Shown here one piece after another: positions 254 to 32,781 of a stretch of DNA of 33,902 nucleotides. The position numbers were made by a program, and so were the translations under genes. The DNA comes from Alphaproteobacteria bacterium. Its GTDB lineage: Bacteria; Pseudomonadota; Alphaproteobacteria; GCA-2731375. Below the pieces are notes generated by a model that was not told the origin of the DNA, ran no database searches, and saw only the letters and a program-made list of their open reading frames with translations. The stretch covers positions 1 through 33,902 of the forward strand of contig JAPKBD010000008.1 of the NCBI GenBank assembly GCA_028824965.1. The letters are read 5' to 3'. Numbering within the stretch: the first letter of the stretch is position 1; each line of letters begins with the position of its first letter.

Positions 254-784
254 TCACTCTGCCGTTAAAATTCCATGCATTTTTTCTGCGGCCTGGTCAT
301 CATCCAGCCCCTCTACAGCCGCCAATTCCCGCACCAAACGCTCCATTGCAGCTTCATAGATCTGCCGTTCACTATATGATTGTTCGGGCTGGCCCTCACC
401 ACGATGTAAATCGCGGATTACTTCTGCGATCAGGACGGGATCACCGGAATTGATCTTGGCCTCGTACTCCTGGGCCCGGCGAGACCACATGGTACGCTTG
501 ACCCGGGCCCGGCCCTTCAGGGTGGTCAGCGCGGTTTTCATCTTCTCGGCACTGGCCAGGGGGCGCATCCCACTGACTTCCGCCTTGTTGATAGGTACCC
601 GCAGGGTCATCTTTTCCTTTTCGAAAAGGACGACGAATAATTTTAATTGAGTGCCGGCAACTTCCTGATCTTCGATGCCGGTTATGCGACCGACGCCATG
701 GGTTGGATAAACGACATAATCATCGATAGCGAAGCCATTGGTACGTTTCACCTTCGCCGTTTTCTTCTTTACCTTAGTCGCCAT
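254..784 (-). CDS. carD: CarD/CdnL-family transcription regulator
   Basis: A 176-residue protein with the CarD layout. After a lysine-rich tail (MATKVKKKTAKVKR) comes a beta-rich RNA-polymerase-interacting domain at about residues 18-75, containing YVVYPTHGVGRI and FEKEKMTLRVP. An all-helical C-terminal half follows, with the conserved stretch RVKRTMWSRRAQEYEAKI. CarD proteins bind the RNA polymerase beta subunit and stabilise open complexes, often at rRNA and other housekeeping promoters. The ATG is preceded by GAGAAGG at a normal distance, which fixes the start. It sits downstream of fdxA on the same strand, separated by about 260 bp that contain two hairpins, so it probably has its own promoter. 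A strong terminator follows. Identification is firm; target promoters cannot be read from the sequence. Confidence 0.93.
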   Translation of the reverse strand: MATKVKKKTAKVKRTNGFAIDDYVVYPTHGVGRITGIEDQEVAGTQLKLFVVLFEKEKMTLRVPINKAEVSGMRPLASAEKMKTALTTLKGRARVKRTMWSRRAQEYEAKINSGDPVLIAEVIRDLHRGEGQPEQSYSERQIYEAAMERLVRELAAVEGLDDDQAAEKMHGILTAE

Positions 785-18330: not shown

Positions 18331-19155
18331 ATGTCGGAAATGATAACTGGCGAACAGACGGCGCAAGACGCCTATCAGGCACAGGGCTTCCTAAGCCCGA
18401 TCCGGGTCATGTCAGCGGAACGCGCCGGGCAGTTGGCCGACAAAGTCGCCAGCATCTACGACACCTATGGCGATGAGGCTAAGGGCCTTTTGGGTTCCAA
18501 TGCCCATTTTGTCTTTCCTGAATTGTTTGACCTGGTTAACGACCCCACGATCCTGGATCATGTTGAAGACGTCCTGGGCCCGGACATTCTGTGTTGGTCG
18601 TCATCGTTCTTTTCCAAACCGGCAAATGATCCCAGTTTTGTGACCTGGCATCAGGATGCCACCTATTGGGGGTTGGAGCCTGCTGATATTATCACCGCCT
18701 GGATTGCCCTGACCCCCTCGACACCACAAAGCGGCTGCATGCGCATGGCACCGGGCAGCCATTCGGAAGGACAGTTGGGCCACAGCGATACCTACAAGGC
18801 AGACAATCTGCTCAGCCGTGGCCAGGCGTTGGATGTGGCGGTGGATGAAGAACAGGCAGTCGACATCGTTTTGCAGCCGGGCGAGATGTCCCTACACCAT
18901 GTTCTTGTGGTGCATGGGTCAGAGCCGAACCGGACGGCGCTGCCCCGGCACGGCTTTGTGATCCGCTATATCCCCACCTATTGCAAACAGGTCGGCGGGC
19001 GCACCACATCACTGTTGGTGCGGGGTAAGGATAAATACGACCATTTCGACACCGTACCCCGGCCTCAATCAGACATGCACCCAGATGCTGTTGCCTTTCG
19101 CGAAGGCGCCAACAAGGCGGTGAAATCAATCCTGATGCGTGGTGCCAAAGTATAG
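18331..19155 (+). CDS. Phytanoyl-CoA dioxygenase (PhyH) family oxygenase
   Basis: A 274-residue Fe(II)/2-oxoglutarate-dependent oxygenase. The iron triad is visible as H107-x-D109 (WHQDATYWG) and H195 (VVHGSEPNRT), and R212 in FVIRY is a candidate for binding 2-oxoglutarate. PhyH relatives hydroxylate acyl-CoAs, small secondary metabolites or alkylated heteroatom compounds. GGAG stands about 10 nt before the ATG. It is the first gene of a run of plus-strand genes (GST, PAS_5, EthD) with gaps of 81, 25 and 20 nt, so it probably heads an operon. The substrate is unknown. Confidence 0.88.
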   Translation: MSEMITGEQTAQDAYQAQGFLSPIRVMSAERAGQLADKVASIYDTYGDEAKGLLGSNAHFVFPELFDLVNDPTILDHVEDVLGPDILCWSSSFFSKPANDPSFVTWHQDATYWGLEPADIITAWIALTPSTPQSGCMRMAPGSHSEGQLGHSDTYKADNLLSRGQALDVAVDEEQAVDIVLQPGEMSLHHVLVVHGSEPNRTALPRHGFVIRYIPTYCKQVGGRTTSLLVRGKDKYDHFDTVPRPQSDMHPDAVAFREGANKAVKSILMRGAKV

Positions 19156-19236
19156 CTTGAAATGTAGCGCACGGGCCTTGCCGCCCCTGGCCGTTCGGGC
19201 CAACTATTTTGTAAAAATTCAATTGGAGTATTAATT

Positions 19237-19848
19237 ATGGCATTAGAAATTATCGGCTTTCCCCGCTCTAACTTCGTGCGCACCGTGCGCATGGTGGCGG
19301 AGGAAAAAGGCGTGCCGTACGAACATAGTCCCGCCATGCCCCATTCCGACGAAGTCAAAGCGCTCAACCCTTTTGGCTATATTCCCGTCATGCGCCACGA
19401 TGGGCTGGATCTGGTGGAAAGCTTTGCCATAGCCCATTACATCGACACGGCCTTTGACGGCCCGGCATTGGTGCCCACAGATCCCCGCGCTGCCGCAGCC
19501 GTCAACCGTTGGATTATGACCACCAATACCACCGTCGATCAGATGATCATGCGTAAGTACGTCGTGGAATATGCCTTCCACAAAGACAAGGACGGCAATG
19601 TTGTCCGCGATGTCATCGACCAGACGGTCAAGCGTCTACCCAAAATGTTCGCTTTCCTGGATGGCGCGGTTGCCAATGGATATCTGGGGGGGAGCAGCTT
19701 CACCATGGCCGATTGCTTCTTGATGCCCATGCTGGCGGGGGTGCAGAATTTCCCCGAAGGTAAAGAAAACATGGCGAACAGCCCGAACTTACAAGCCTAT
19801 TTCGCCAGAGTAGCCGAACGGGACAGCTTTAAGGATACCGCAGGATAG
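19237..19848 (+). CDS. Glutathione S-transferase family protein
   Basis: A 203-residue protein with a thioredoxin-like N-terminal half and a helical C-terminal half. The first strand and helix read EIIGFPRSNFVRTVRMVAEE, with Ser11 as the likely thiol-activating residue. NPFGYIPVM carries the cis-proline that contacts glutathione, and VESFAIAHYI supplies the gamma-glutamyl contact (E-S). FTMADCFLMPML in the C-terminal half holds the conserved buried Asp. Family members conjugate, isomerise or dehalogenate small molecules. TTGGAG precedes the ATG. With a second GST at 27408, the locus appears to need thiol chemistry or protection from electrophiles. Confidence 0.9.
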   Translation: MALEIIGFPRSNFVRTVRMVAEEKGVPYEHSPAMPHSDEVKALNPFGYIPVMRHDGLDLVESFAIAHYIDTAFDGPALVPTDPRAAAAVNRWIMTTNTTVDQMIMRKYVVEYAFHKDKDGNVVRDVIDQTVKRLPKMFAFLDGAVANGYLGGSSFTMADCFLMPMLAGVQNFPEGKENMANSPNLQAYFARVAERDSFKDTAG

Positions 19849-19873
19849 ATGACTTTTTTTAGGTCTGATCAAA

Positions 19874-20389
19874 ATGCCTTTTAGTGACGACAAATATCTT
19901 GGGACTGGATTGCCGTATCTGGAACTGATCCCGATTGCGGCGCCGGAAATGCCGCAAGCGTATGCCTTGGCGGCCTACTACGAAGAAAAGGTGGCGGCGG
20001 CACAAGACCAGCCACACCGCTTACCTTTGTGGAGCGATTTTCAACTTCCCGAACTTGTGCAACAGAACCTTGCCAGCAACGTTTTTGTTTTGGAACCCGT
20101 CGATGGCAACACTGATTGGCGATACCGCCTACTGGGGACAGAGATTGTCGCCCGGTTTGCCATTGATCGAACGGGGCAAAAGTTGCGGGAGTTTGATGAC
20201 CCGGAACATGTTGAGCACCTGATCCAGATCAGCAATGAGATCGCGACGTCAGGGGTGGCAAAATATTACCGCATGATACCCCACAATATGGATTTGAAGC
20301 ATCTTCAGATCGAAACCATGAGCTTGCCCATTCGCAACAACAACGACGATGAAACCTGGTTGTTCGGCGGCACGTTTTATGGCGCATGA
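19874..20389 (+). CDS. PAS_5-type PAS domain protein
   Basis: A 171-residue single-domain protein resembling the alphaproteobacterial PAS_5 family. Signature pieces are LPLWSDFQLPEL, FVLEPVDGNTDWRYRLLGTEI and DRTGQKLREFDDPE. There is no kinase, cyclase, DNA-binding or membrane segment. PAS_5 proteins are mostly uncharacterised and may bind a small ligand. Its position between a GST and a double EthD protein (25 and 20 nt gaps) suggests cotranscription with the catabolic genes, either as a ligand sensor or as a binding protein. AGGTCTGA lies upstream of the ATG. Confidence 0.72.
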   Translation: MPFSDDKYLGTGLPYLELIPIAAPEMPQAYALAAYYEEKVAAAQDQPHRLPLWSDFQLPELVQQNLASNVFVLEPVDGNTDWRYRLLGTEIVARFAIDRTGQKLREFDDPEHVEHLIQISNEIATSGVAKYYRMIPHNMDLKHLQIETMSLPIRNNNDDETWLFGGTFYGA

Positions 20390-20409
20390 AATTGTAGACA
20401 GGTAACAAC

Positions 20410-21174
20410 ATGACAGTGACACCAGAAGCCACGCCTAAAGCCGCTGCGGGCGCAAAGATGATGTATCTGATCAAGCGCCGGGCTACCACCAGCCGCGAAG
20501 AGTTGATCGCCCATTGGTTTGCCAATCACATGCCCGCAGTCATCGCCCGCAATAAAAACGGCGGGGCCACGGGCGGCCTGCAAGCCAGCCGCTATCTTGG
20601 CATTCTGTTCGACCCTAAAGTTGACGACGATCCTGCAAAACAACCCATCTGGGACGGCATGGCGCAACTTTGGTTCGACAAGGCACCACCGCCCTCAACC
20701 TCAGCCCATGGCGAGGTCCCCGCCGATACATTCCAGGAAATGGCAGAGCCGTATCGGCCCTGGGCGACACGGGAATACGTCATCATGGACGGGCCCCTGC
20801 CCCTCAAACCCCTGACCCTGAATGCACCCTTTCCCTGCACCCGCAGCGGCTTTTTCAAGGTCACATTTTTGGTCTGCCTTAAGGCAGGTGCTGATAGCGG
20901 AGATTTATTTGATTATTGGCTGAACGTGCACGTGCCAAATGTGCGCCAAACTATGGAAGCCGTGGGCGGCTTTCGCTATGTCGTCAGCCACAGCCTGGAC
21001 CCAAACAACGAAACCTATGCCGGCATGGCGGAATTATACTTCCCTGACCCATCCGGCTGGGACCGCTATCGCGACCACATCAAACCCGACGGCATGGACG
21101 ATTTCATCAATCGGGACGGCATGGAAGTCTTTCACAGCGGCACCGAAATGGTTGGGATTGAAGCGCCCCGTTAG
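20410..21174 (+). CDS. Double EthD-domain protein
   Basis: A 254-residue protein formed by two dimeric alpha-beta-barrel (EthD-like) repeats. The first, about residues 16-125, contains MMYLIKRRATTSREELIAHW followed by HMP. The second, about 145-245, contains FFKVTFLVCLKAG, YWLNVHVPNV and YAGMAELYF. The paired (H/Y)W...H(M/V)P motif marks the duplication. EthD was named from an ether (ETBE) degradation operon with a P450; related folds act as small-molecule lyases or accessory proteins. A covalent tandem would form the barrel within one chain. It is the last gene of the PhyH-GST-PAS-EthD run and is convergent with yajQ, 19 nt away. Confidence 0.82.
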   Translation: MTVTPEATPKAAAGAKMMYLIKRRATTSREELIAHWFANHMPAVIARNKNGGATGGLQASRYLGILFDPKVDDDPAKQPIWDGMAQLWFDKAPPPSTSAHGEVPADTFQEMAEPYRPWATREYVIMDGPLPLKPLTLNAPFPCTRSGFFKVTFLVCLKAGADSGDLFDYWLNVHVPNVRQTMEAVGGFRYVVSHSLDPNNETYAGMAELYFPDPSGWDRYRDHIKPDGMDDFINRDGMEVFHSGTEMVGIEAPR

Positions 21175-21193
21175 AATATTTGATCTAGATTTC

Positions 21194-21679
21194 TTAATCC
21201 CGAAAGTTCACGTACTGCAGCGGTTGGTCCAGCTTCATGTCTTTGATCAGGGCGATGGCGATTTGCAAGTCATCGCGTTTTTTGCCGGTAACACGCAGCT
21301 CGTCACCTTGGATGGCGACCTGGGTTTTCAGCTTGGCCGCTTTGATGCCTTTGACGATCTTTTGCGCCAACTCCCGCTCTATCCCCTGAATGATCACCAC
21401 GGACTGGCGGACGGTATTGCCGGAAGCTTTTTCCGGGTCTTTGAAATCAAATGCCTTGTAGTCCACTTTGCGTTTGGCCAGATAGCCGCGCAGCAATTCC
21501 TGCATCTGCTTCAGCTTCAATTCGTCATCGGCGCGCAGGGTCAGGACCACATCATCACGTTCAATCGTGCACTGGCTGCCTTTGAAATCAAATCGGGTTG
21601 AGATTTCCCGCATGGCACCTTGGATGGCGTTATCTACTTCGGCAATTTCCGTCTTGGAGACGACGTCGAATGACGGCAT
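21194..21679 (-). CDS. yajQ: YajQ-family nucleotide-binding protein
   Basis: A 161-residue protein of the well-conserved YajQ (DUF520) family. It has the typical opening MPSFDVVSKTEIAEVDNAI, the central KRKVDYKAFDFKDPEKASG and the C-terminal LQYVNFRD. The protein has two ferredoxin-like folds. Some homologues bind cyclic di-GMP and modulate a transcription factor, others bind nucleic acid or nucleotides. It is a housekeeping gene placed between the two halves of the catabolic region, convergent with the EthD gene and downstream of the monooxygenase on the same strand. Confidence 0.95.
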   Translation of the reverse strand: MPSFDVVSKTEIAEVDNAIQGAMREISTRFDFKGSQCTIERDDVVLTLRADDELKLKQMQELLRGYLAKRKVDYKAFDFKDPEKASGNTVRQSVVIIQGIERELAQKIVKGIKAAKLKTQVAIQGDELRVTGKKRDDLQIAIALIKDMKLDQPLQYVNFRD

Positions 21680-21747
21680 GGCGATCTACTTTCCATTTTG
21701 GCGGTTGGCGTGGCTGCAATTGCACCATCATAACCGAAAGAAACAGA

Positions 21748-23235
21748 TCAGGACACCAAGTCGAATTCATCCAGGTTTGGTGCCGTCATATCCTCACAGA
21801 ATTTGGCGAAACTGAAGGGCCACATGGCAGGGTTGCCGTTTTTGTCCAGATACCAGCTTTGACAACCCGTCACCCAGACCGTGTCTTTCATGGCGCCTTT
21901 GATATCAGTGTTAAAACTTTCCATGGCCTCCTGCTTGGCGGAGATCTCGTTGACCTCTCCGCCCCGCCACAAATCGATCAGCTGCATGACATAGGCCAAC
22001 TGCCGTTCTGATATATCGATCAGGGAAAAATTTCCGATGGGGCTATTGGGTCCAACCAGCATGAAATAATTGGGGAAGCCGGGCAAAGATATGGAACGGT
22101 GGGCAGGCGTGGCATCGACCCAAACGTCTTTCAAATCGACGCCGTCACGGCCGATCAAATCCATGGGTCGCATGAAACTATGACCGTCAAAGCCCGTGGC
22201 CAAAACCAATACGTCCAGTTCATGCAACTGGCCATCCTTGGTGCGCACGCCGCCCGGTTCCACCCGCTCAATCTTGTCCGTGATCAATGCGGCATTTGGT
22301 TTTTGCATGGCGGCGTAGAAACCATCGGAGACGATCAGCCGTTTGCAGGCAGCTTGATAGTCCGGCGTCAGACGGGCGCGCAATTCCGGGTCATGGACGT
22401 TGTCTTCCAGATTGGCGCGGCAGGCATCCTGGATCAGCTTCATCTGCTCCTTATCGCCAATGACCGCCTCACCAAATGTGGAAGCAAATAAGTTGGTCAA
22501 ATTGGCGTACAGATCATCCATGGCACCGGGAATATTGCGATATACGTCCTTTTCCTTTTCAGAAAACGCCGGGTTCTCCTGGGAGAAAATCCACTGTGCC
22601 GTACGCTGAAACAGGGACAAGTGCGCAACATCGTCAATCACATCCGTGGCGATCTGCACGGCAGTGGATCCGGTGCCAACGATACCGACACGCTTGCCAT
22701 CCAAAGACACATCATGGTTCCAGCGGGCGGAATGAAACACATCGCCGCCAAAATCATCCAGACCAGGGATATCGGGATAAACCGGTTTATGCAGGACACC
22801 GGCGGCGGAGACGATGATATCCACCACGTCCAGGGTTTCATCACCACATTCGATATGCCATTTACCCCCTTGATAGCGGGCGCAGGTGATCTCTCTGTTG
22901 AATTTGACGAATTTTTCGATCTCGTACTTTTTCGCGACGCCATCGAAATAAGCCATAATCTCCGCGCCCGGAGAAAACCGATGGCTCCATTCCGCATTCG
23001 GCTCAAAGGAATAGCGGTACATGTGCGAAGGCACGTCGCAGCACAGGCCAGGATAGGTGTTTTCACGCCAGGTGCCGCCCAGGCTGGCAGCTTTTTCATA
23101 GAGGGCGAAATCCGTCATGCCCGCTTCCTGCAGCTTGATGGCGGTCAGAATACCCGACATGCCACCACCAATAACGGCGATACGTGGCATCCGTTTGGCT
23201 GAATTATCCTGCTCCGAAATTTCCTGTACACTCAT
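21748..23235 (-). CDS. Baeyer-Villiger-type flavin monooxygenase
   Basis: A 495-residue FAD/NADPH monooxygenase. The FAD-binding loop is GGGMSG (23-28), the NADPH loop GTGSTA (187-192), and between them is FGGDVFHSARW (162-172), an exact match to the Baeyer-Villiger fingerprint FxGxxxHxxxW. LATGFDGHSF near residue 350 is also family-typical. Such enzymes turn ketones into esters or lactones, or oxidise heteroatoms. GTG 23238 and ATG 23235 are adjacent; I chose the ATG after AGGTGAG. It is divergent from the dehydrogenase gene at 23384. The nearby alpha/beta hydrolase and SDR could supply the usual alcohol-ketone-ester-acid sequence, but that is inference. Confidence 0.92.
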   Translation of the reverse strand: MSVQEISEQDNSAKRMPRIAVIGGGMSGILTAIKLQEAGMTDFALYEKAASLGGTWRENTYPGLCCDVPSHMYRYSFEPNAEWSHRFSPGAEIMAYFDGVAKKYEIEKFVKFNREITCARYQGGKWHIECGDETLDVVDIIVSAAGVLHKPVYPDIPGLDDFGGDVFHSARWNHDVSLDGKRVGIVGTGSTAVQIATDVIDDVAHLSLFQRTAQWIFSQENPAFSEKEKDVYRNIPGAMDDLYANLTNLFASTFGEAVIGDKEQMKLIQDACRANLEDNVHDPELRARLTPDYQAACKRLIVSDGFYAAMQKPNAALITDKIERVEPGGVRTKDGQLHELDVLVLATGFDGHSFMRPMDLIGRDGVDLKDVWVDATPAHRSISLPGFPNYFMLVGPNSPIGNFSLIDISERQLAYVMQLIDLWRGGEVNEISAKQEAMESFNTDIKGAMKDTVWVTGCQSWYLDKNGNPAMWPFSFAKFCEDMTAPNLDEFDLVS

Positions 23236-23264
23236 CACTCACCTGCCTCACAACATATTTTGAC

Positions 23265-23299
23265 GCCCTTAATAGCATCAAATGCCCTTATTTCATCAA
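23265..23299. promoter_or_regulatory. Direct repeat, candidate regulator binding site
   Basis: GCCCTTAATAGCATCAA (23265-23281) and GCCCTTATTTCATCAA (23284-23299) share GCCCTTA and CATCAA arms, offset by 19 bp, close to two DNA turns. They lie 30-65 bp upstream of the monooxygenase start, in the spacer divergent from the dehydrogenase operon. This is the arrangement of an activator site, but the regulator is not in the window. Confidence 0.4.
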
Positions 23300-23302
23300 G
23301 GC

Positions 23303-23342
23303 GTGGCAAAAAGCCACATGGGGCGCCTTCAAGGCGCGCCTT
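23303..23342. promoter_or_regulatory. Hairpin and palindrome in the divergent spacer
   Basis: GTGGC (23303-23307) pairs with GCCAC (23313-23317) around AAAAA. The perfect 12-bp palindrome AAGGCGCGCCTT follows at 23331-23342, overlapping the arm of a second small dyad (GCGCCTTCAAGGCGC). They sit between the direct repeat and the dehydrogenase start at 23384. An operator is possible; no protein can be named. Confidence 0.3.
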
Positions 23343-23383
23343 TGTTAGGCTAGGCTCTCTTAAGAAAACAATGGGAGGGGCAA

Positions 23384-24697
23384 ATGGCGAAATACCTGAA
23401 ACAAGGTCTTGGGCAGGCGGAGGTTGACGAGGCCGATGCCAAAGTGAGGGTCCAGGTCGAGGGCATTCTGGGGGATATCGAGGCACGCGGCGACGCTGCC
23501 GTGCGGGAACTGTCGGAGAAATTCGATAACTGGAGCCCGGAAAGCTTCCGCCTTTCAGAAGCAGAGATCGAGGCAGCGATGTCGAAAGTCGCAAAGCGCG
23601 ACCTGGATGATATCCGATTTGCCCAAACACAAGTTCGCAACTTCGCCCAGCACCAAAAAGACGCCCTTAGGGATATTGAAGTAGAGACCATGCCGGGCGT
23701 GGTTCTGGGTCACAAGAACATCCCCGTAAATTCGGTCGGCTGCTATGTGCCGGGCGGCAAATACCCCATGGTCGCATCCGCCCACATGTCCGTGGTGACA
23801 GCAAAGGTGGCGGGTGTGCCCCGTATCGTGGCGTCAGCACCACCACAGGGCGGCGCACCGCATCCCGCCATTGTCGCTGCCATGCACATGGGCGGGGCTG
23901 ATGAAATTCTGGTCCTGGGCGGCATTCAGGCTGTGGCCACCATGGGCCTGGGTACAGAGACAGTGACCGGCGTCGATATGCTGGTGGGACCTGGTAATAT
24001 GTTCGTGGCAGAGGCAAAGCGGCAATTGTATGGCAAGGTCGGCATCGACTTATTTGCAGGCCCGACCGAAACCTTGATTATCGCCGATGACAGCAGCGAT
24101 GGGGAATTATGCGCCATCGATCTGTTGGGTCAGGCAGAACACGGACCGACTTCGCCGGCGGTTTTGCTGACCACCTCCACGGCCTTGGCCAAGGACACCA
24201 TGGCAGAGATAGCGCGTCAGTTGGAAATTTTGCCGACAGCAGAGATTGCCCGAGAAGCGTGGGAGAATTACGGCGCGGTCATCGTCTGTGACAGTGACGA
24301 GGAAATGTTGGCGGAAGCCGACCAACTGGCTTTTGAACATGTTCAAGTGATGACAAAGGACCCGGAATATTTCCTGGATAACATGACCAACTATGGTGCC
24401 ATGTTCCTAGGTCCCCGCACCAATGTGTCATACGGCGACAAGGTGATCGGCACCAACCATACCCTACCCACCAAAAGAGCCGGGCGTTATACGGGCGGTT
24501 TGTGGGTGGGCAAGTTCATCAAAACCCATACCTATCAGCGAATTTTGACGGACGAAGCATCTGCCCTGGTCGGTGAATATTGCTCCCGCCTGTGCATGTT
24601 GGAAGGTTTCGCCGGGCATGCGGAACAGGCCAATGTGCGGGTGCGCCGGTACGGCGGGCGCAACGTGCCACCCTATACGGCGGTGGAACCGGCATAG
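23384..24697 (+). CDS. Histidinol-dehydrogenase-family NAD-dependent alcohol dehydrogenase
   Basis: A 437-residue zinc enzyme of the histidinol dehydrogenase fold. Zinc ligands by family alignment are Q250 and H253 (GQAEHGP), D352 ([10 protein letters not shown]) and H412 (GFAGHAEQ), with the base pair E318-H319 (FEHVQV). All catalytic residues are intact, so a four-electron alcohol-to-acid oxidation is chemically plausible. No his biosynthesis genes adjoin it. Catabolic members such as HpsN (dihydroxypropanesulfonate dehydrogenase) are a better comparison than HisD, but the sulfonate substrate is not established here. GGGAGGGG lies just before the ATG. It starts a tightly packed plus-strand operon reaching the carboxylase at 29422. 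Confidence 0.88.
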
Positions 24698-25647
24698 TGT
24701 CAGTGAAAATTGGGGCAGGCCATATTGGCATCGTCGGCGCTGGCCTGGTGGGCGGCGGTTGGACCATTGTTTTTGCCCGCGCCGGTGAACAGGTGCGGGT
24801 CTATGACGCCGCCGCTGACATACGTGATAGGTTCATGGAGATCGTCGCCGGGCAGCTGGATGATTTGAAAACCTATGATCTGCTTGATGAGCCAGCCGCC
24901 ATTTTGGGGCGCATCATCATCTGCGATAATCTGGGTGAGGTGGTGGAGGGTGCGCGGTTCATCCAGGAATCCGTGTTCGAACAGACAGATGTAAAGACCG
25001 AAATCTCCAACGCCATCGGGCCATTACTCTCGGATGGCGCCATCGTGGGCAGTTCCACATCAGGCATTCCCAGTTCCGCCTTCACGGAACATGTCGTTAA
25101 CCGGGAACGATTCCTGGTCACCCACCCGGTCAACCCGCCCTACCTGGCCCCAATTGTTGAGGTGGTGCCTGCCCCCTGGACGGCAAAGGACGCAATCGAT
25201 GGCGCCCTGGCTTTAATGACAGCTGTGGGACAATCCCCCGTGCTGGTCCGACGGGAAGTGGAGGGATTTATCCTGAACCGTTTGCAAGGCGTTCTGTTGC
25301 GGGAAGCCTGGGATTTGTACCAGGAAGGCTATGCCTCCGCCGAGGATATCGACAAAACCGTATCCGAGGGTCTGGGCCTGCGCTGGTCTTTTATGGGGCC
25401 GTTTGAGACAATTGATATGAATGCACCGGGGGGTGTGGCCGATTATGCGGAGCGTCTGGGGCCGCTGTATCATTCCATTCAAAAATCCCGCACGGACCCA
25501 CAGCCATGGAGCGCTGAACTTATCAGCGCTGTGGACAACGAACGCCGCGCCAAGCTCCCTATGGAGAAACTGGCCGAACGCCGCAAATGGCGCGACCGCC
25601 GCCTGATGGCCCTGGCCGCCCATAGATCTAAACAGGCCAGCGAATGA
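24697..25647 (+). CDS. 3-hydroxyacyl-CoA dehydrogenase-like (CRYL1/carnitine dehydrogenase type)
   Basis: A 316-residue NAD-dependent dehydrogenase. GAGLVGGGW (14-22) is the Rossmann loop, STSGIPSS (120-127) the substrate region, and HPVNPPYLAPIVEVVPAPWT carries the catalytic H143 and E155. The HPVNPP...E-VPAP pattern and the single-domain length match lambda-crystallin/L-gulonate and L-carnitine dehydrogenases more than fatty-acid-oxidation enzymes. The GTG at 24697 overlaps the previous TAG by one base (TAGTG), so translation is coupled. The frame is open further upstream, but only inside the preceding gene. Its stop overlaps the next ATG by 4 nt. A hydroxyl-to-ketone oxidation in the pathway is the likely role. 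Confidence 0.86.
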   Translation: MSVKIGAGHIGIVGAGLVGGGWTIVFARAGEQVRVYDAAADIRDRFMEIVAGQLDDLKTYDLLDEPAAILGRIIICDNLGEVVEGARFIQESVFEQTDVKTEISNAIGPLLSDGAIVGSSTSGIPSSAFTEHVVNRERFLVTHPVNPPYLAPIVEVVPAPWTAKDAIDGALALMTAVGQSPVLVRREVEGFILNRLQGVLLREAWDLYQEGYASAEDIDKTVSEGLGLRWSFMGPFETIDMNAPGGVADYAERLGPLYHSIQKSRTDPQPWSAELISAVDNERRAKLPMEKLAERRKWRDRRLMALAAHRSKQASE

Positions 25648-26408
25648 CGGCCACGACAATTGAAGGCTTTCGCCTGGACGGCCAATTGGCCGTCGTCACC
25701 GGGGCTTCCCGTGGCCTTGGCGAAGGTTGCGCGGTTGCCCTGGCGGGCGCGGGTGCAGATGTGGCCCTGATCGGACGCACCCAGGAAAATCTTGATACGG
25801 TCGCCGCACAAATCGTCGACCTGGGTCGCACCGCCCATGTCCTGGTCGGCGATGTGACAGAGACGGCAGCCTTGGCGGAGGCGTTGGGCGATCTACCCCC
25901 CTTCCAGATATTCGTCAACAACGCAGGTACCAATAGCCCACAGCCATTTTTGGAAGTGGATGAAGATACCTTTGACATGGTCATGGACCTGAACCTGCGT
26001 GCCGCTTTCTTTGCCGCCCAGTCCGCTGCCCGTTTGATGGCGGAGAACGGCGCAGGAGGCACTATCATCAACATGTCATCCCAGGCGGGCCATCGCGCCT
26101 TGCGGGACCGCAGCGTCTATTCCACCTCCAAATTCGCCATTGAAGGTTTAACCAAGGCCATGGCCTTTGAATTGGCAGAGCAAAATATCCGCGTCAACGC
26201 CGTCGCACCCACCTTTGTTGAGACGCCCATGACCAAGGCCGGCTTGGCGCAGGCGGAATTCCGTGATTATGTAGAAGGCAAGATCAAGCTGCCCCGCCTG
26301 GGACAAATCGGCGATGTTGCTGCCGCCGTGTTGTTTTTGGCGTCTCCCGCATCATCCATGATAACGGGAACCTCCCTCCTGGTGGATGGCGGCTGGACCG
26401 TCGACTAG
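25644..26408 (+). CDS. Short-chain dehydrogenase/reductase
   Basis: A 254-residue classical SDR. The cofactor loop is TGASRGLG (19-26), NNAG lies at 92-95, and the active site has N118, S145 and Y159-S-T-S-K163. VNAVAPTFVETPM and TGTSLLVDGGWTVD complete the usual C-terminal pattern. It oxidises or reduces an alcohol/ketone pair with NAD(P); the class alone does not reveal the substrate. ATGA overlap with the preceding gene shows cotranscription. A run of nine T (26410-26418) follows the stop directly but has no GC-rich stem. Confidence 0.93.
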   Translation: MTATTIEGFRLDGQLAVVTGASRGLGEGCAVALAGAGADVALIGRTQENLDTVAAQIVDLGRTAHVLVGDVTETAALAEALGDLPPFQIFVNNAGTNSPQPFLEVDEDTFDMVMDLNLRAAFFAAQSAARLMAENGAGGTIINMSSQAGHRALRDRSVYSTSKFAIEGLTKAMAFELAEQNIRVNAVAPTFVETPMTKAGLAQAEFRDYVEGKIKLPRLGQIGDVAAAVLFLASPASSMITGTSLLVDGGWTVD

Positions 26409-26433
26409 ATTTTTTTTTACGGAGCGTTCTCCC

Positions 26434-27411
26434 ATGTCAAAACTGGTGCCTGACCTGATAGTCACCGATCATCGCGTTGAAAGCAGCCAAGCGGGCCTGT
26501 CGGTTTTCGTGCGGAACAAGCATTTAGCAGACCGCGATGCCTTCACCACGGCAGAAACTGTTTTATTCGTCCATGGTGCAACCTATCCCTCGACCATCAC
26601 CTTTGACTACGCCATTGATGGGGTTTCCTGGATGGATATCATGGCCAGGGCGGGCTTTGATGTCTGGTGCGTCGATCTACTTGGCTATGGCAACTCTGAC
26701 CGACCAGCGGAGATGTCCGTACCGGCGGATGATAACCCGCCCGTGGTGGATACGGATGATGCGGTTGCCGATGTGACGCGGGTTATTGATTTCATTTTGG
26801 GTCAACGGGACCTGCCGCGATTGAGCTTGATCGGCTATTCCTGGGGCACTTTGATCGGCGGCACCTACGCCGGCCAACAGCCGGACAAAATAGAACGCCT
26901 GGTTTTGTACGGCGCTGCCTGGATGGGCACCGGTGGTGCCATTTCCACAGGCAAACCGCCGGGCGCTTACCGCATGGTGGATGCTGAGGCGGCGATTGCC
27001 CGATGGTGCAGAGAACTTGATGACAGCCAGATCGCAAGCATTGCCAGCCCGGATCATAGGACGGCCTGGGCCAACGCGTTTCTGGCCTCTGATCCGGAAG
27101 CTAGCCGCCACCGGCCGCCCCAAGCCCGCGCGCCTGCCGGTGTGGTCAAGGATGTGCAGGCACGTCTGTTGGGGGATACGCCGCCCTATGATCCCAGCTT
27201 GATCCAGGCCCCGACCATGATCATTGTTGGTGATTGGGACCGGGAAACAAGGCCCGAACAAGGCAAAGCATTGTTTGATCTTTTATCCAATACGGCAGAG
27301 CGGCGTTATGTGCTGATCGGTGGCGGCACCCATTCATTGTTGATTGAGAACCAGCGTGGCGGTTTACACCGCACCGTCGATGGTTTCCTAAAGGAAGGCT
27401 GGCTAGCATGA
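26434..27411 (+). CDS. Alpha/beta-fold hydrolase
   Basis: A 325-residue serine hydrolase. The oxyanion region is FVHGATYPS (45-53), the nucleophile elbow GYSWGT carries S136, the acid is D267 or D269 in VGDWDR, and the base is H300 in GGGTHSLL. No signal peptide is present, so it is cytoplasmic. The ATG at 26434 follows ACGGAG; an upstream in-frame extension to 26386 only reads the end of the SDR gene. It ends in an ATGA overlap with the GST gene. With a Baeyer-Villiger enzyme in the same cluster, ester or lactone hydrolysis is a reasonable role, but amides or carbon-carbon bonds are also possible for the fold. Confidence 0.9.
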   Translation: MSKLVPDLIVTDHRVESSQAGLSVFVRNKHLADRDAFTTAETVLFVHGATYPSTITFDYAIDGVSWMDIMARAGFDVWCVDLLGYGNSDRPAEMSVPADDNPPVVDTDDAVADVTRVIDFILGQRDLPRLSLIGYSWGTLIGGTYAGQQPDKIERLVLYGAAWMGTGGAISTGKPPGAYRMVDAEAAIARWCRELDDSQIASIASPDHRTAWANAFLASDPEASRHRPPQARAPAGVVKDVQARLLGDTPPYDPSLIQAPTMIIVGDWDRETRPEQGKALFDLLSNTAERRYVLIGGGTHSLLIENQRGGLHRTVDGFLKEGWLA

Positions 27412-28058
27412 GTGACGGTATCATTTTATGGGGCGCAATTTCCCTGCGCGCCCTGCGGGTTCACTGGGCCTTGCAGGAACTGGGCCTGACCTATCAGTTT
27501 CGCCCGATACAATCGCGCACCGGTGAAACCCTGACGGCGGAATATTCCGGGCATAACCCGAAACAAAAGATCCCCACCCTACAGGACGGCGATTTCACCC
27601 TGACGGAAAGCCCGGCCATCGTGAACTATCTGTTCAACAACTATGGCCCAAATTCAGATGCTGATATCCACTTACCGCAAAATGCGGTTGAGCAAGCCCG
27701 GGCGGATGAGTGGAGCTATTTCGCGATGATGGAGCTGGACGCCCATTCCCTATACCTGATCCGCCGGCACAAATTTCTGCCCGAAATATATGGCGAGGCG
27801 CCTGTCGCTGTCGCCTCAGCGGCGGAATATTGCCTGAAGCAAATCAATGCCGTTGCCCCTGCCATAGCTGACATCAAGGATTATATCTTTGGGTCCAAGA
27901 TCAGCGCTGCCGATATCTTGTTGGCGACGACCCTGGATTTCGCTGAACGCTATGAAGTAGAGCTGCCGCCGTCCTGCCGAGCCTATCGGGATCGTGCCTT
28001 TGCCCGACCCGCATTTCTGGCCGCCAAGCAACGAAACGAGGATCTGGATGCCAATTAG
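27408..28058 (+). CDS. Glutathione S-transferase family protein (second copy)
   Basis: A 216-residue GST. The N-terminal domain reads LWGAISLRALRVHWALQELG, with NPKQKIPTL supplying the cis-proline and TESPAIVNYL the glutathione-binding E-S pair. The helical domain contains ISAADILLATTL with the conserved Asp. It differs clearly from the GST at 19237, so the pair is not a recent duplication. It overlaps the hydrolase by 4 nt and the amidase by 11 nt. Translation coupling on both sides ties it firmly to the pathway, perhaps for a glutathione adduct, isomerisation or removal of a reactive intermediate. Confidence 0.9.
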   Translation: MSDGIILWGAISLRALRVHWALQELGLTYQFRPIQSRTGETLTAEYSGHNPKQKIPTLQDGDFTLTESPAIVNYLFNNYGPNSDADIHLPQNAVEQARADEWSYFAMMELDAHSLYLIRRHKFLPEIYGEAPVAVASAAEYCLKQINAVAPAIADIKDYIFGSKISAADILLATTLDFAERYEVELPPSCRAYRDRAFARPAFLAAKQRNEDLDAN

Positions 28059-29388
28059 CGCCCGCGACAATCTGGAAGCCGCACTGGACACCATCGAACG
28101 CCACAACGGGGCCATCAATGGCATGATCACGGTCACCGCCGATCAGGCCCGTGCCGACGCAGATGCTGCGGACCAGGCAGCGGCCAATGGCCAATGGCTG
28201 GGCCTGCTGCACGGTATGACCATGGCCATCAAGGACAATATTCAGACGGCGGGCGTGCGCACCACCTCAGGCTCGCTGCATTTCAAGGACGTGGTACCGA
28301 ACCAGGATGCTTTTGTCGTAGAACGATTGAAGGCGGCAGGTGCGGTGATCGTGGGCAAGGCCACTATGCAGGAATTGGCATTCGGCATCCGCTCTGACAA
28401 TCCGGTCAGCGGGCAATGTCATAACCCGTGGGATCAAGACCGAATACCTGGCGGATCGTCGGGCGGGTCAGGCGCTGTAGTTGCAGCTGGCATGGCCCAG
28501 GGCGCATTGGGCACAGACACCGGCGGCTCCATCCGCCTGCCCGCCGCCATGAATGGCATTGCCGGACTACGCCCGACCCATGGTCGGGTGCCCAACCATG
28601 GCTCGACACCGGTTTCCGCCGCCTACGACACCATCGGCCCCATGGCGCGGCGGGTCAGCGATCTGGCCCGCATCCTGGCTGTGACGGCATCCGAGGGGCC
28701 GGGTTCAGCACCGACGTCAGGGCCGGACCTGGGCAATTTTCTGCCCACCCTGAACGACGGGGTTAACGGCCTGCGCATCGGGGTGCCGGGTAATTTCTAT
28801 TTCGATAATTGTGCCGATGTCATTGCAGAGGCGGTGATGACGGCGCTGCGTAACTTGGAAACACAAGGTGCGACGCTGGTCGAAGTGGATGTGGCCGGGG
28901 CGGAAACAACCCATCAATGGGCCACCATTCAGGTCTATTCAGATGCCTGCGCCTATCACAAAGACCGCCTGGATAATCATCCCGAGCTGTTCTCGAAAGG
29001 CGTTCTGGATCGCATGTTAGTGGGGCGCACATTTACGGGCGTGGATTACGCCAATGCCTGCCGGGCACGGGAAACCTGGCAACAGACCCTGGGCGCGCTG
29101 TACCAGGATATCGATATCCTGGCATCCCCCACGACGCCGGCCCCACCACCACCCATCAGGGAAGACAAATCATTGTTGGAGGCTACCAAGGATGCCTCCC
29201 GCAACACCTACGCGGGCGGATTTGGTGCCAATCCCGGCCTGTCCCTGCCCGTCGGCTTTGACGGCGACGGGTTGCCCATCGGCCTGCAACTGGAAGCCGC
29301 CTGGTGGGAGGAGCCTAAGTTACTACGCACAGGCGTGGCCTATCAAAACGCCACTGATTGGCATCTGGCCGAACCGCCGCTAAAATAA
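28048..29388 (+). CDS. Amidase signature family hydrolase
   Basis: A 446-residue amidase signature enzyme. The catalytic triad is visible: K62 (MAIKDNIQTAG), cis-Ser S137 (PGGSSGGSGA) and nucleophile S161 (GTDTGGSIRLPA). The 24-residue spacing between the serines agrees with characterised members. Relatives hydrolyse amides, carbamates or esters, or act as GatA in tRNA amidation; no gatB or gatC is adjacent, so a catabolic role is likelier. The ATG at 28048 follows GAGGATC and lies inside the end of the GST gene. It is followed after 33 nt by the carboxylase. Confidence 0.93.
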   Translation: MPISARDNLEAALDTIERHNGAINGMITVTADQARADADAADQAAANGQWLGLLHGMTMAIKDNIQTAGVRTTSGSLHFKDVVPNQDAFVVERLKAAGAVIVGKATMQELAFGIRSDNPVSGQCHNPWDQDRIPGGSSGGSGAVVAAGMAQGALGTDTGGSIRLPAAMNGIAGLRPTHGRVPNHGSTPVSAAYDTIGPMARRVSDLARILAVTASEGPGSAPTSGPDLGNFLPTLNDGVNGLRIGVPGNFYFDNCADVIAEAVMTALRNLETQGATLVEVDVAGAETTHQWATIQVYSDACAYHKDRLDNHPELFSKGVLDRMLVGRTFTGVDYANACRARETWQQTLGALYQDIDILASPTTPAPPPPIREDKSLLEATKDASRNTYAGGFGANPGLSLPVGFDGDGLPIGLQLEAAWWEEPKLLRTGVAYQNATDWHLAEPPLK

Positions 29389-29421
29389 TCGCAAAACAAC
29401 GATCCGAGGAAGTCCATCGAC

Positions 29422-32400
29422 ATGAGTGTAAAAAATTTACTGGTCGCCAATCGCGGCGAGATCGCCATTCGTATCCTACGCGCGGCAGCCGAAATGAATA
29501 TTCCTACCGTTGCAATATATGCGGAAGATGAAGCGGCATCCCTGCATCTGACCAAGGCGGATGAAGCGGTTGGCCTGTCAGGCCGGGGCGTTCCCGCCTA
29601 TTTGGATGGTGCGGGCATTCTCGCCATTGCCAAAGATACCGGTTGTGACGCCATTCATCCCGGCTATGGTTTTTTAAGCGAGAACGCCGAATTCGCGAAA
29701 GCCTGCGCCCAGGCAGGCATCACCTTCGTTGGCCCCACGGCGGAGACTTTGCAGACGTTCGGCGACAAAGCCACGGCGCGGGAGCTGGCGGCCGGCAACG
29801 GCGTGCCTGTTTTACCCGGCAGCCAAGGTGCCATATCCGTAGGGGAGGCCGAGGCATTCTTTGCTGAACACGGCCCCATCATGATCAAGGCCATCGCCGG
29901 TGGCGGTGGGCGCGGCATGCGCGCCATTACCGATGCGGACGAGATTTCCGCCGCCCATGGCATCTGTCAAGCGGAGGCGTTGCAGGGTTTCGGCAATGGC
30001 GATGTCTTTGTCGAACGCTTGTTGCAAAAACCCCGCCATATTGAAATTCAGATCATCGGCGATGGACAGGGTGCCATCAGCCACCTGGGGGAGCGGGAAT
30101 GTTCCATTCAACGGCGGCATCAGAAAATCGTCGAAATAGCCCCGGCACCGGGCCTGACGGCGGACTTGCGCGACAGGTTAACCCAAGCCGCCGTGACCCT
30201 TGCCAGTGCGGTCAGCTACCGCAACCTGGGCACGTTCGAATTCCTGGTTGAGGGGGACGAATTCTTTTTCATTGAGGCGAACCCCCGCTTGCAGGTGGAA
30301 CACACGGTGACGGAGGAAGTCTGGGGCGTGGATCTGGTACAAAGCCAGTTGCGCGTGGCAGGCGGTGCCACGTTGGCTGATCTGGAATTGACCCAAGCTC
30401 AAGTGGGCCCGCCCCGTGGCCAGGCCATGCAGGTGCGCATTAATATGGAAACGATTGAGGCTGACGGCAGTGTCCGGCCGTCGGGGGGTGTCTTGGACAG
30501 CTTCGAGATGCCGTCCGGGCCCGGCATCCGCGTCGATAGTTTCGGCTATGCGGGCTATCGCACATCACCCAGTTACGACTCTTTATTGGCCAAACTGATC
30601 GCGCATACCAACAGTAACGATTTCACGGCCCTGGCCCAAAAAACCTATCGCGCCCTGTGCGAATGCCGGATTACGGGGCTATCGAGCAACATATCCTTTC
30701 TGCAAAACCTGCTGCGCCATCCGGCGTTCAAGGCGGAAAGCATCAACACCCATTTCATCGACGATCATCTGGCGGCCCTGGTTGAAGGCACGGACCATCA
30801 GCGCCTGTTCTTTGAGCCTGCGGGCGCGGAACCTAGCGACGGCAACCTCGTCGGCGTTAAGGTAGATGCATCCGACCCCCTGGCTGTGTTGAGCCACGGC
30901 AAAACTGAAGCGGCGGCAATTACGACGGCAAGCAATGATCTGGCCGGCCCGGACGGCACCACCGCCATTCCTGCACCTATGCAAGGCACCATCGTCAGCA
31001 TTGATGTGGCGGAAGGCGATGACGTCTATCCCGGCCGTCAGATCCTGGTCATGGAAGCCATGAAAATGCAGCACGTCATCGAGGCGGAGATCAGCGGCGT
31101 TCTGCGTCAGTTGCCTGTCGCCCCCGGCGATACGGTGTTCGAAGGCCACGCCCTGGCCTATGTGGCGGAACAGGATGTGGACATCCCTGATGCAGGCGAC
31201 GTGGTTGCCATAGATCTGGATTATATCCGCCCGGATTTGGCCGAGGTGATGGAGCGCCAAGGCATCACCAAGGATGATCGCCGACCCAATGCGGTGGCCC
31301 GGCGACGCAAAACCAACCAGCGCACGGTGCGGGAAAACATCGAACAGCTATGCGATGAGGGCTCCTTCACCGAATTGGGATCATTGGTTCTGGCCGCCCG
31401 TCGGGGCATGCATTCCATGGAAGAGTTGATCGAACGCACGCCCGCCGACGGTCTGGTCACCGGCCTGGGGCGGATCAATGGACATCTGTTCCCCGATGAA
31501 GTCGCCCGTTGTGCCGTGATGTCCTATGACTACACGGTTCTGGCCGGGACCCAGGGCAAGAACAACCACAAGAAAAAGGACCGCATGTTCGAGATGGCGG
31601 AGAAATGGCGTCTGCCCATCGTCTTCTTCACCGAAGGCGGCGGTGGACGTCCCGGTGATACGGACATGATTTTTTCCGCCAACCTGCATGTGCCCGCCTT
31701 TCATCTGTTTGGCAAATTAAGCGGCCTGGTACCTTTGGTCGGCATTACGTCGGGACGTTGTTTTGCCGGTAACGCGGTGTTGCTGGGCTGTTGCGATGTG
31801 GTCATCGCGACGGAAAATTCGACCATTGGCATGGGCGGTCCCGCGATGATTGAAGGTGGGGGTTTGGGCGTTTTCAGGCCGGAAGAAGTGGGGCCGATGT
31901 CCGTCCAGGTGCCCAACGGCGTCGTTGATATCGCCGTCAAGGATGAGGAAGAGGCGGTTGAGGTCGCACAAAAATACCTTAGCTATTTCCAGGGCGCGGT
32001 AGAGGATTGGGAATGTGCGGATCAGCGCATCCTGCGCCAGGCCATCCCGGAAGACCGTTTGCGCATCTATGATGTACGCAAGGTGGTTGAGAATATGTGC
32101 GACACAGGCTCGGTGCTGGAATTACGCGCAGGCTTCGGCTTGGGCATGGTGACAGCCCTGGCCCGCATAGAGGGGCGGCCCGTCGGTATCGTAGCCAACA
32201 ACCCGAACCATCTGGCAGGTGCCATCGACAGCGACGGCGCGGACAAGGCATCCCGCTTTATGCAGCTGTGCGATGCCTATGACATCCCCCTGGTATTCCT
32301 GTGCGATACGCCAGGCAACATGGTCGGCCCGGTGGCGGAACAAACCGCGCTGGTGCGCCATTGTTGCCGGCTTTATGTCATCGGTGCCAACGTCACCGTG

Positions 32401-32781
32401 CCGACCTTTACCATTGTCCTGCGCAAGGGCTATGGCCTGGGTGCACAAGGCATGGCAGGGGGCGGTTTCCACGCACCGTTCTTCACCATTTCATGGCCGA
32501 CAGGCGAATTCGGCGGCATGGGCCTGGAAGGCGCGGTCAAGCTGGGCCGGCGGGACGAGCTGATGGCGATTGAGGACCCGGAAGAACGCATGGCCAAGTA
32601 CGAAGAAATGGTCGCCGCCATGTACGCCCAGGGCAAGGCGATCAATGCCGCCTCACTGTTCGAATTGGACAATGTGATTGACCCAGCAGACACCCGGGAA
32701 TGGATCACGTCCGGCCTGCGCGCGGCACCGCCCGTCCCCGCACGGGAAGGCAAAAAACGGCCCTGGATTGATACGTGGTGA
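29422..32781 (+). CDS. Single-chain biotin-dependent acyl-CoA carboxylase
   Basis: A 1119-residue fusion of all carboxylase activities. Residues 1-455 are biotin carboxylase (NRGEIAIRILRA, ATP loop GGGGRGMRAI, catalytic region EANPRLQVEHTVTE). A linker leads to a biotinyl domain at about 515-585 with biotin-accepting K548 (EAMKMQ). From about 605 to the end lies a carboxyltransferase with both halves (GITSGRCFAGNA and DTPGNMVGPVAEQ). This architecture and size match the single-chain long-chain acyl-CoA carboxylases (LCC) described in Mycobacterium avium and Rhodopseudomonas palustris. The acyl substrate of this copy is unknown. GAGGAAG precedes the ATG. It is the last gene of the operon and no separate beta subunit is needed. 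Confidence 0.95.
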   Translation: MSVKNLLVANRGEIAIRILRAAAEMNIPTVAIYAEDEAASLHLTKADEAVGLSGRGVPAYLDGAGILAIAKDTGCDAIHPGYGFLSENAEFAKACAQAGITFVGPTAETLQTFGDKATARELAAGNGVPVLPGSQGAISVGEAEAFFAEHGPIMIKAIAGGGGRGMRAITDADEISAAHGICQAEALQGFGNGDVFVERLLQKPRHIEIQIIGDGQGAISHLGERECSIQRRHQKIVEIAPAPGLTADLRDRLTQAAVTLASAVSYRNLGTFEFLVEGDEFFFIEANPRLQVEHTVTEEVWGVDLVQSQLRVAGGATLADLELTQAQVGPPRGQAMQVRINMETIEADGSVRPSGGVLDSFEMPSGPGIRVDSFGYAGYRTSPSYDSLLAKLIAHTNSNDFTALAQKTYRALCECRITGLSSNISFLQNLLRHPAFKAESINTHFIDDHLAALVEGTDHQRLFFEPAGAEPSDGNLVGVKVDASDPLAVLSHGKTEAAAITTASNDLAGPDGTTAIPAPMQGTIVSIDVAEGDDVYPGRQILVMEAMKMQHVIEAEISGVLRQLPVAPGDTVFEGHALAYVAEQDVDIPDAGDVVAIDLDYIRPDLAEVMERQGITKDDRRPNAVARRRKTNQRTVRENIEQLCDEGSFTELGSLVLAARRGMHSMEELIERTPADGLVTGLGRINGHLFPDEVARCAVMSYDYTVLAGTQGKNNHKKKDRMFEMAEKWRLPIVFFTEGGGGRPGDTDMIFSANLHVPAFHLFGKLSGLVPLVGITSGRCFAGNAVLLGCCDVVIATENSTIGMGGPAMIEGGGLGVFRPEEVGPMSVQVPNGVVDIAVKDEEEAVEVAQKYLSYFQGAVEDWECADQRILRQAIPEDRLRIYDVRKVVENMCDTGSVLELRAGFGLGMVTALARIEGRPVGIVANNPNHLAGAIDSDGADKASRFMQLCDAYDIPLVFLCDTPGNMVGPVAEQTALVRHCCRLYVIGANVTVPTFTIVLRKGYGLGAQGMAGGGFHAPFFTISWPTGEFGGMGLEGAVKLGRRDELMAIEDPEERMAKYEEMVAAMYAQGKAINAASLFELDNVIDPADTREWITSGLRAAPPVPAREGKKRPWIDTW

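Follow-up and report, generated by a model that had tools for sequence, protein, structure and literature searches.

The seven-gene cluster analysed here lies on contig JAPKBD010000008.1 of an Alphaproteobacteria bacterium (assembly GCA_028824965.1); this contig, 33,902 nucleotides long and one of those in a 4.4-Mb draft genome, is the whole stretch of DNA that was studied and is referred to as the window. Between positions 23384 and 32781, seven genes on one strand encode a protein of the histidinol dehydrogenase fold (HDH), a CRYL1-like 3-hydroxyacid dehydrogenase (CRYL1), a short-chain dehydrogenase/reductase (SDR), an alpha/beta hydrolase, a glutathione S-transferase (GST2), an amidase-signature hydrolase, and a single-chain acyl-CoA carboxylase of the LCC type (Table 1). 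The HDH stop codon TAG and the GTG start of CRYL1 at 24697 overlap by 1 nt, CRYL1 and the SDR gene by 4 nt, the hydrolase and GST2 genes by 4 nt, and GST2 and the amidase (ATG at 28048) by 11 nt; the amidase and LCC genes are separated by 33 nt, and the SDR and hydrolase genes by 25 nt, given the hydrolase start at 26434 that an alignment of orthologues suggests. The cluster is a real, genus-level gene set of known enzyme families, a combination that we did not find described in open-access PMC full text, and it begins with a member of a third sequence subclass of the HDH fold.

Table 1. Genes and other features of the window, with the operon first
Feature	Position	Strand	Basis
HDH	23384..24697	+	PF00815, 454.5 bits; nearest solved sequences HpsN, then HisD
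CRYL1-like 3-hydroxyacid dehydrogenase	24697..25647	+	PF02737, PF00725; NF004783 above cut-off
SDR, partner of the HDH subclass	25644..26408	+	PF13561
Alpha/beta hydrolase (GYSWG)	26434..27411	+	PF00561; orthologue alignment
Glutathione S-transferase 2 (GST2)	27408..28058	+	PF02798
Amidase-signature hydrolase	28048..29388	+	PF01425; KDN, GGSSGGS and TGGSIR motifs
Single-chain acyl-CoA carboxylase (BC-BCCP-CT), LCC type	29422..32781	+	Domains; biotin motif EAMKM
Conserved element GGCAAAAAGCCACA between divergent BVMO and HDH	23305..23318	+	Intergenic comparison
Type I Baeyer-Villiger-like flavin monooxygenase (BVMO), divergent from HDH	21748..23238	-	Sequence matches, motifs
YajQ (DUF520)	21194..21679	-	Family match, gene neighbourhood
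EthD protein, accessory	20410..21174	+	Family match
PAS_5 protein, accessory	19874..20389	+	Family match
Glutathione S-transferase 1 (GST1)	19237..19848	+	Family match, linkage
PhyH-type Fe/2-oxoglutarate oxygenase	18331..19155	+	Family match, linkage
Class-III aminotransferase, hydantoinase A (HydA), hydantoinase B (HydB)	9977..15125	-	
881-aa open reading frame between aminotransferase and PhyH	15606-18251		FecR match below cut-off
CarD-like protein	254-784		Family scan

An earlier note on this DNA had proposed that these genes, together with the PhyH, GST1, PAS_5, EthD and BVMO genes upstream, form a twelve-gene catabolic pathway interrupted only by yajQ. Frame reading and family scans found every gene it named open at its place and matching its family, and reading of the junctions bore out the 1-, 4-, 4- and 11-nt overlaps. 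The description of the interruption was inexact, since the BVMO gene also lies on the minus strand, so that plus-strand genes (18331-21174) come first, followed by YajQ and BVMO on the minus strand and then by the plus-strand HDH-LCC operon. The EthD protein, described as double, has one EthD domain rather than two by the Pfam and NCBIfam thresholds. The statement that the window holds no CoA ligase, transporter or regulator stood in scans of chosen open reading frames (ORFs; some small ones were left out), with the exception of a CarD-like protein near the left end. The genes have a G+C content of 52-61% (60-70% at third codon positions), and base composition gives no sign of a recent foreign origin of the block. 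The sequence has 9 promoter-like sites against 9.8 expected and 20 terminator-like sites against 16.0 expected, and a PADLOC run on three ORFs gave no match.

Conservation was assessed in the taxonomic order of the window, which comprises 15 genomes in one family and five genera, 11 of them in the window's genus. LCC orthologues with 83-94% identity occur in all ten other genus members, and the DNA read around LCC has HDH, hydrolase, GST2 and amidase in its company in 11/11 (the window included; a contig end cuts HDH in G010), always as one directon. The gene order is thus not confined to this genome, the core order being present in all 11 genus species compared. CRYL1 was found in 10 (all except G002) and SDR in six (not in G002, G006, G007, G008 or G009; the match in G001 spans residues 2-203 only). 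The gene after LCC is mostly unshared in eight downstream stretches, one of only 1.7 kb, at a threshold of 55% identity; three stretches share a gene of about 300 codons near LCC (60-61% identity) and two share another pair, and these counts are rough because the simple ORF caller chose antisense ORFs in GC-rich loci, for which reason blanks in Pfam scans of such loci carry no weight. With the core order in 10/10 other species and little shared directly behind LCC, the block is confirmed as more than a chance arrangement. Full-length LCC paralogues (56-60% identity) are listed in seven other genus members, and the window's own genome has a second LCC-type carboxylase (G000:C253:7603-10977) that is 57% identical to that of the operon. 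Named metagenome-assembled genomes of the genus go under the labels Rhodospirillaceae, Alphaproteobacteria or Proteobacteria bacterium; their isolate names include SI072, SI074, Arabian10, BS150m and casp150, which we read as pointing to oxygen-poor waters.

The genes upstream are less uniformly conserved. BVMO is present in 11/11 genus members and adjoins HDH in all nine in which one contig spans both (contigs break in G004 and G010), and YajQ and GST1 are linked to the block in 11/11, YajQ probably as a bystander near BVMO. PhyH is linked in nine of the 11 clusters, PAS_5 in three and EthD in two; the latter two are accessories of the block. These counts, together with those for SDR (not found in 5/11) and CRYL1 (1/11), speak against the twelve genes forming one unit. 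That claim is further weakened in the family, where BVMO orthologues (63-65% identity) occur in two of four members of other genera, G011 and G012, in which the thresholds used detected no hydrolase, SDR or CRYL1 (their drafts are 81 and 83% complete, and the four together 81, 83, 98 and 100%). Across all four, the hydrolase model gave no match at 1e-30 and the SDR model none at 1e-75, with one 46% match to CRYL1; G014 has an HDH of the same subclass (69%) without SDR beside it, and the G012 LCC (72%) adjoins genes resembling Zn-alcohol dehydrogenases and molybdopterin enzymes.

It has to be considered whether the region is a set of independent short units that have remained neighbours because rearrangement is slow and that serve no single pathway. 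The three directions of transcription with YajQ in the middle, the variable presence of PhyH, PAS_5, EthD, SDR and CRYL1, and a synteny that reaches into the aminotransferase/hydantoinase genes all fit this explanation; set against it are the single HDH-LCC directon of all genus members, the overlapping genes of the window, and a conservation that mostly ends after LCC. We regard independent units as a somewhat improbable explanation.

The block as such was not encountered in the loci read outside the genus. A collection of genomes from 84,980 species was scanned with two short peptide patterns of the hydrolase, a search that sees only pattern-bearing loci, several of them on short contigs. 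It returned 39 loci, 10 from the genus; no HDH, GST2 or LCC relative was found near the other 29, which have only weak single matches to SDR, amidase, CRYL1, GST1 or HydA. Class samples of 385 genomes included 28 outside genomes with a relative of the hydrolase (seven, six read) or of GST2 (21, four read), and the 10 loci read contain only weak single amidase or SDR matches to other genes of the block. Outside the genus the hydrolase has varied company: relatives with 53-55% identity (L067, L068) lie near RimK-like and aspartoacylase-like genes, and relatives with 54-56% identity overlap an altronate/galactarate dehydratase-family gene in G209 and a homologous gene in G301 and G095 (one outside genus; the family was scanned in one locus, L211, of L211, L212 and L213), the latter overlap counting in favour of a polyol or sugar-acid substrate.

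HDH-fold enzymes bind the 2-OH or 2-NH2 of the substrate and an axial group on Zn and carry out a four-electron, NAD-dependent oxidation, and HisD and HpsN are distinguished by the motifs G-S-A-P-L and G-R-Y-A/S-H, His126 of the latter contacting the sulfonate (PMC11382572). In an alignment, the window HDH has GKYPM at the place of the HpsN motif, with Met (residue 129) for His126, and keeps the equivalents of Glu318-His319, Asp352-Lys353 and the Zn ligands (Gln, His, Asp, His) of HpsN; by our count, residue numbers in the solved chain are those of the paper plus one. At this motif the window sequence is shared without change by all nine genus orthologues that extend over it. HDH relatives from 61 outside loci were compared, 53 of them 64-79% identical to the window protein and eight 49-51%; the 53 have Met (33), Leu (17) or Ile (3) at the His126 position and His in no case, and a second motif reads GDKVIG in 52 and GDKAIG in one. 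Six of the eight distant loci (L164-L169) have GKYPL with GDKG[VI]G and two (L170, L171) the HpsN motif. FastTree separates the 53 and the genus from the eight with a support of 0.979 (the root is arbitrary, and as rooted the eight form no clade). By motif, then, the window HDH is neither HisD nor HpsN and belongs to a third subclass with the signature G[KR][YF]P[MLI] plus GDKVIG, of which no description was found in open-access PMC full text; it is predicted to be a Zn- and NAD-dependent four-electron alcohol dehydrogenase. The HDH passes the TIGR00069 (HisD) cut-off (441.6 against 243.8 bits) with the HisD motif absent; that model does not separate the subclasses. Relatives with at least 64% identity occur in at least 56 of the 385 class-sample genomes, four of them in the genus, a lower bound obtained at E 1e-120 with up to four candidates scored per genome. 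Loci L164-L169, at about 50% identity and without an SDR partner, represent a further HDH-like subclass.

The same residues bear on whether the operon degrades dihydroxypropanesulfonate (DHPS), with HDH acting as HpsN. The HpsN structures are the nearest solved sequences, the equivalents of Asp352 and Lys353 are retained, and an HpsN homologue of SAR11 with weak activity on R-DHPS has been published (PMC11131964). With the sulfonate-contacting His replaced by Met in the window and different from His in 53/53 outside members, we rejected membership of the DHPS pathway; no sulfolyase-like family was found among the ORFs scanned, and a sulfonate substrate is highly improbable.

Outside the genus, the neighbourhoods of the subclass tend towards polyols or sugar acids as substrates. 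In 43 of the 53 outside loci (30/38 in the class-sample subset), and in none of the eight distant ones, HDH has within 1.5 kb an SDR sharing at least 40% identity with that of the window. Fifteen annotated plasmid loci of the subclass, hand-picked among the better matches, were read: an SDR of the partner type adjoins HDH in 13, and regulators are of the LacI family in 10 and of DeoR or ROK type in two more. The same loci contain sugar or carbohydrate ABC genes (5), lactonase-like or MBL hydrolases (4), RraA (3), aldolases of the 4-hydroxy-2-oxovalerate or citrate-lyase type (2), an L-arabinonate dehydratase (1) and an enolase-superfamily gene (1). The window SDR itself matches L-xylulose reductase, galactitol dehydrogenase and deoxygluconate dehydrogenase in PDB, within a broad family.

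CRYL1 can join this pair. The order HDH-CRYL1-SDR recurs on plasmids of Roseomonas marmotae (74, 59 and 52% identity) and R. haemaphysalidis (72, 58 and 52%), in Pararhizobium gei a sugar transporter and a lactonase-like gene precede CRYL1-HDH-SDR, and six of the seven best plasmid relatives of CRYL1 lie no more than 3 kb from an HDH of the subclass, one of them by listed coordinates only. A Caballeronia relative of CRYL1 without HDH adjoins a beta-keto-acid cleavage protein, lactonase-like genes and a sugar transporter. We tentatively propose that the HDH-SDR pair, with CRYL1 in some cases, is an unrecognised and widespread module for polyol-like oxidation, its HDH being commonly annotated as hisD, and once as hpsN, in the records read.

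The intergenic region between the divergent BVMO and HDH genes contains the 14-nt sequence GGCAAAAAGCCACA, starting 71-83 nt before HDH. It is exact in six of the 10 genus members examined, has one mismatch in G006 and two in G008, and is absent from G001 and G005. An exact search of 12 genomes, eight of the genus, found it in four, once each and always at this place. If three mismatches are allowed, chance alone would give one match to a 16-nt form within the window, so only exact and near-exact copies were counted. The sequence is a candidate regulatory element and may be an operator or part of a 5′ RNA leader.

The remaining enzymes of the operon also match known families. The CRYL1-like protein passes the NF004783 (PRK06129) cut-off (421.2 against 347 bits); lambda-crystallin/CRYL1 proteins are L-gulonate 3-dehydrogenases. 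The predicted fold of the hydrolase has a mean pLDDT of 65.2, with residues 164-240 under 50, and the 50 Foldseek matches listed are generic alpha/beta hydrolases with epoxide hydrolases first, at TM-scores of 0.45-0.60; an epoxide hydrolase is disfavoured by the Ser in GYSWG, and we drew no function from the fold. The amidase has the Ser-cis-Ser-Lys signature motifs, and LCC combines biotin carboxylase, biotin carrier and carboxyltransferase in one chain with a biotinylation motif (Table 1). Lignin beta-aryl-ether systems combine an SDR with a Lig-like GST; a system of this type was rejected, there being no Lig enzyme among the matches listed for GST2 (60 of 114 in PDB), and GST1 has a weak LigF match over residues 9-93.

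In the Baeyer-Villiger route of the earlier note, PhyH or SDR would make or oxidise a secondary alcohol, BVMO would convert the ketone to an ester, the hydrolase would cleave this, and HDH oxidation of the primary alcohol and carboxylation by LCC would follow. The consensus fingerprint of type I enzymes is FxGxxxHxxxW(P/D), and the window protein has FGGDVFHSARW followed by N, so that it passes as type I with a deviating last position; both Rossmann motifs are present. These features, the divergent arrangement of BVMO and HDH across a partly conserved intergenic region, and the constant presence of the hydrolase in the operon make the route a possible one. Against it, G011 and G012 have BVMO orthologues but gave no hydrolase, SDR or CRYL1 in the searches described above, the SDR is inconstant within the genus, and the Zn of the HDH fold holds a 2-OH or 2-NH2 (PMC11382572) that a simple ester-derived alcohol would lack. 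Since HDH-fold chemistry and most outside contexts lean towards polyols or sugar acids, we do not favour the Baeyer-Villiger route and consider it unlikely.

We favour instead, at a probability of roughly 40%, the reading of the operon as a genus-specific catabolic unit in which a polyol-type oxidation module is joined to hydrolases and a carboxylase. It starts from the gene order and its conservation, the enzyme families, their catalytic motifs and the HDH subclass, and from these we infer the reaction steps. Since HDH retains the Zn ligands but not the His that contacts the sulfonate, we predict that it acts on a non-sulfonated vicinal diol or amino alcohol, X-CH2-CH(OH or NH2)-CH2OH, whose terminal CH2OH would be oxidised to the acid with two NAD+. 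The SDR, where present, might oxidise or epimerise the neighbouring secondary alcohol. A terminal acid beside further hydroxyls would suit a CRYL1-type 3-dehydrogenase, which would convert the 3-hydroxy acid to a 3-keto acid, the overall course being polyol to onic acid to 3-keto acid. The presence of hydrolase, amidase and LCC suggests a head group on an ester or amide plus an acyl remainder: the two hydrolases could release the head group or cleave products, and LCC could carboxylate the remaining acyl-CoA, with BVMO, PhyH and the GSTs acting upstream on the parent compound. The set had been proposed as a candidate catabolic pathway with no characterised counterpart, and it is indeed conserved, apparently catabolic, and without an assigned pathway in open-access PMC full text.

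Several observations weigh against the favoured reading. The scanned ORFs of the operon include no transporter, sugar regulator or CoA ligase, and SDR and CRYL1 are inconstant in the genus (not found in 5/11 and 1/11). The genes from YajQ to the aminotransferase are nearly as syntenic as the operon, so synteny is no proof of one pathway. Outside the genus, CRYL1 is near HDH in only 5/53 loci, none of them among the 38 from the class sample; SDR is on the opposite strand in six of the 43 HDH-SDR cases; and Microvirga VF16, with the second-best CRYL1 relative, lacks an HDH over the 15 kb read. The hydrolase of L067 (55% identity) lies directly behind an acyl-CoA-dehydrogenase-like gene and overlaps it, and a relative in G353 (46%) also overlaps such a gene. 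Nor is the sugar lean of the plasmid loci uniform: acyl-CoA dehydrogenase, enoyl-CoA hydratase or CoA-transferase genes occur in those of Delftia, Variovorax and Aminobacter, branched-chain amino-acid ABC genes in those of Aminobacter and P. qamdonense, and TTT, TRAP or MFS transporters in others.

An amino-alcohol version overlaps the favoured reading, so that the odds of the two are not exclusive: the amidase would free an amino alcohol, HDH would oxidise it to an amino acid, and the aminotransferase would deaminate this. Aminotransferase and HydA lie upstream in nine of ten testable genus members (they were not seen in G008, and the G007 contig stops short of the place), with HydB also seen in six of the nine before the fetched stretch ends, so these genes are a possible further part of the block. 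HisD, of the same fold, takes an amino alcohol, and the amidase is present in 11/11 operons. The CRYL1 and SDR partners favour hydroxy compounds, however, and Martelella is the only outside case in which HDH was confirmed to have a neighbouring amidase relative (32% identity, annotated as an amidase); L110 has an apparent one, and the candidate in the L108 locus (L149) was rejected as GatA next to GatB. We consider the amino-alcohol version quite unlikely.

Further observations concern the flanking genes. The aminotransferase/hydantoinase genes are divergent from PhyH in relatives, and a luciferase-like monooxygenase gene lies between them in L033 (13581-14627; scanned in L033). The 881-aa ORF has a relative (58%) at the same place only in G003, the closest species. 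An FMN_bind_2 gene separates YajQ and BVMO in L035 (7005-7637; scanned in L035).

The HDH type is widespread and can readily be confused with histidine- or sulfonate-metabolising enzymes, and the third motif type offers a sequence rule that separates a large group of hisD and hpsN annotations from HisD and HpsN proper; a corrected label would alter many pathway reconstructions. The operon provides a testable pathway for uncultured marine Alphaproteobacteria. If the module reading is true, the window represents a genus with a whole operon built around the HDH-SDR module. SAR11 has been named a likely DHPS degrader (PMC8269247). For CuHpsN of SAR11, a Km for R-DHPS of 106 mM is reported, compared with 1.07 mM for the Ruegeria enzyme and 103 mM for E. 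coli HisD, with a kcat/Km for R-DHPS 2.2 times that for histidinol, and its authors, and earlier work cited there, conclude that SAR11 catabolises DHPS (PMC11131964). Two loci with 31% GC, L181 and L182, in class-sample genomes of about 1.4 Mb, carry the HDH subclass plus SDR (no SAM-V riboswitch match was obtained there or in controls). Should this subclass occur in streamlined marine bacteria, some of the 'hpsN' signal from which DHPS turnover is estimated belongs to another compound, and if L181 and L182 are SAR11, 'hpsN' labels there need checking.

Compared with known systems, the window HDH shares with HpsN, the (R)-2,3-dihydroxypropanesulfonate 3-dehydrogenase (PDB 8v35, 8wwe), the PF00815 fold, the Zn-ligand and catalytic positions and Asp352-Lys353, and differs in having GKYPM for G-R-Y-A/S-H and in an identity of 49-51% to the HpsN-motif loci L170 and L171. 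With histidinol dehydrogenase (HisD) it has in common PF00815 and a TIGR00069 score above the cut-off; unlike HisD, it keeps the HpsN-like GDK and has no adjoining his genes in the window, and the replacement of G-S-A-P-L by GKYPM led us to reject HisD proper as its identity. The best PDB matches of the window CRYL1, nearly full length, are lambda-crystallin/CRYL1 proteins (3f3s, 3ado), from which it differs in being encoded in a bacterial operon with HDH. The carboxylase has the same single-chain domain set as LCC (PDB 4rcn) and the carboxylase 5fif, and is predicted to carboxylate an acyl-CoA; a Tistrella relative (56%) adjoins an AMP-binding, CoA-ligase-like gene that has no counterpart in the window. 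The BVMO shares sequence matches and motifs with the type I enzymes cyclohexanone and phenylacetone monooxygenase, but it is shorter (496 aa) and its fingerprint ends in W-N rather than W-P/D.

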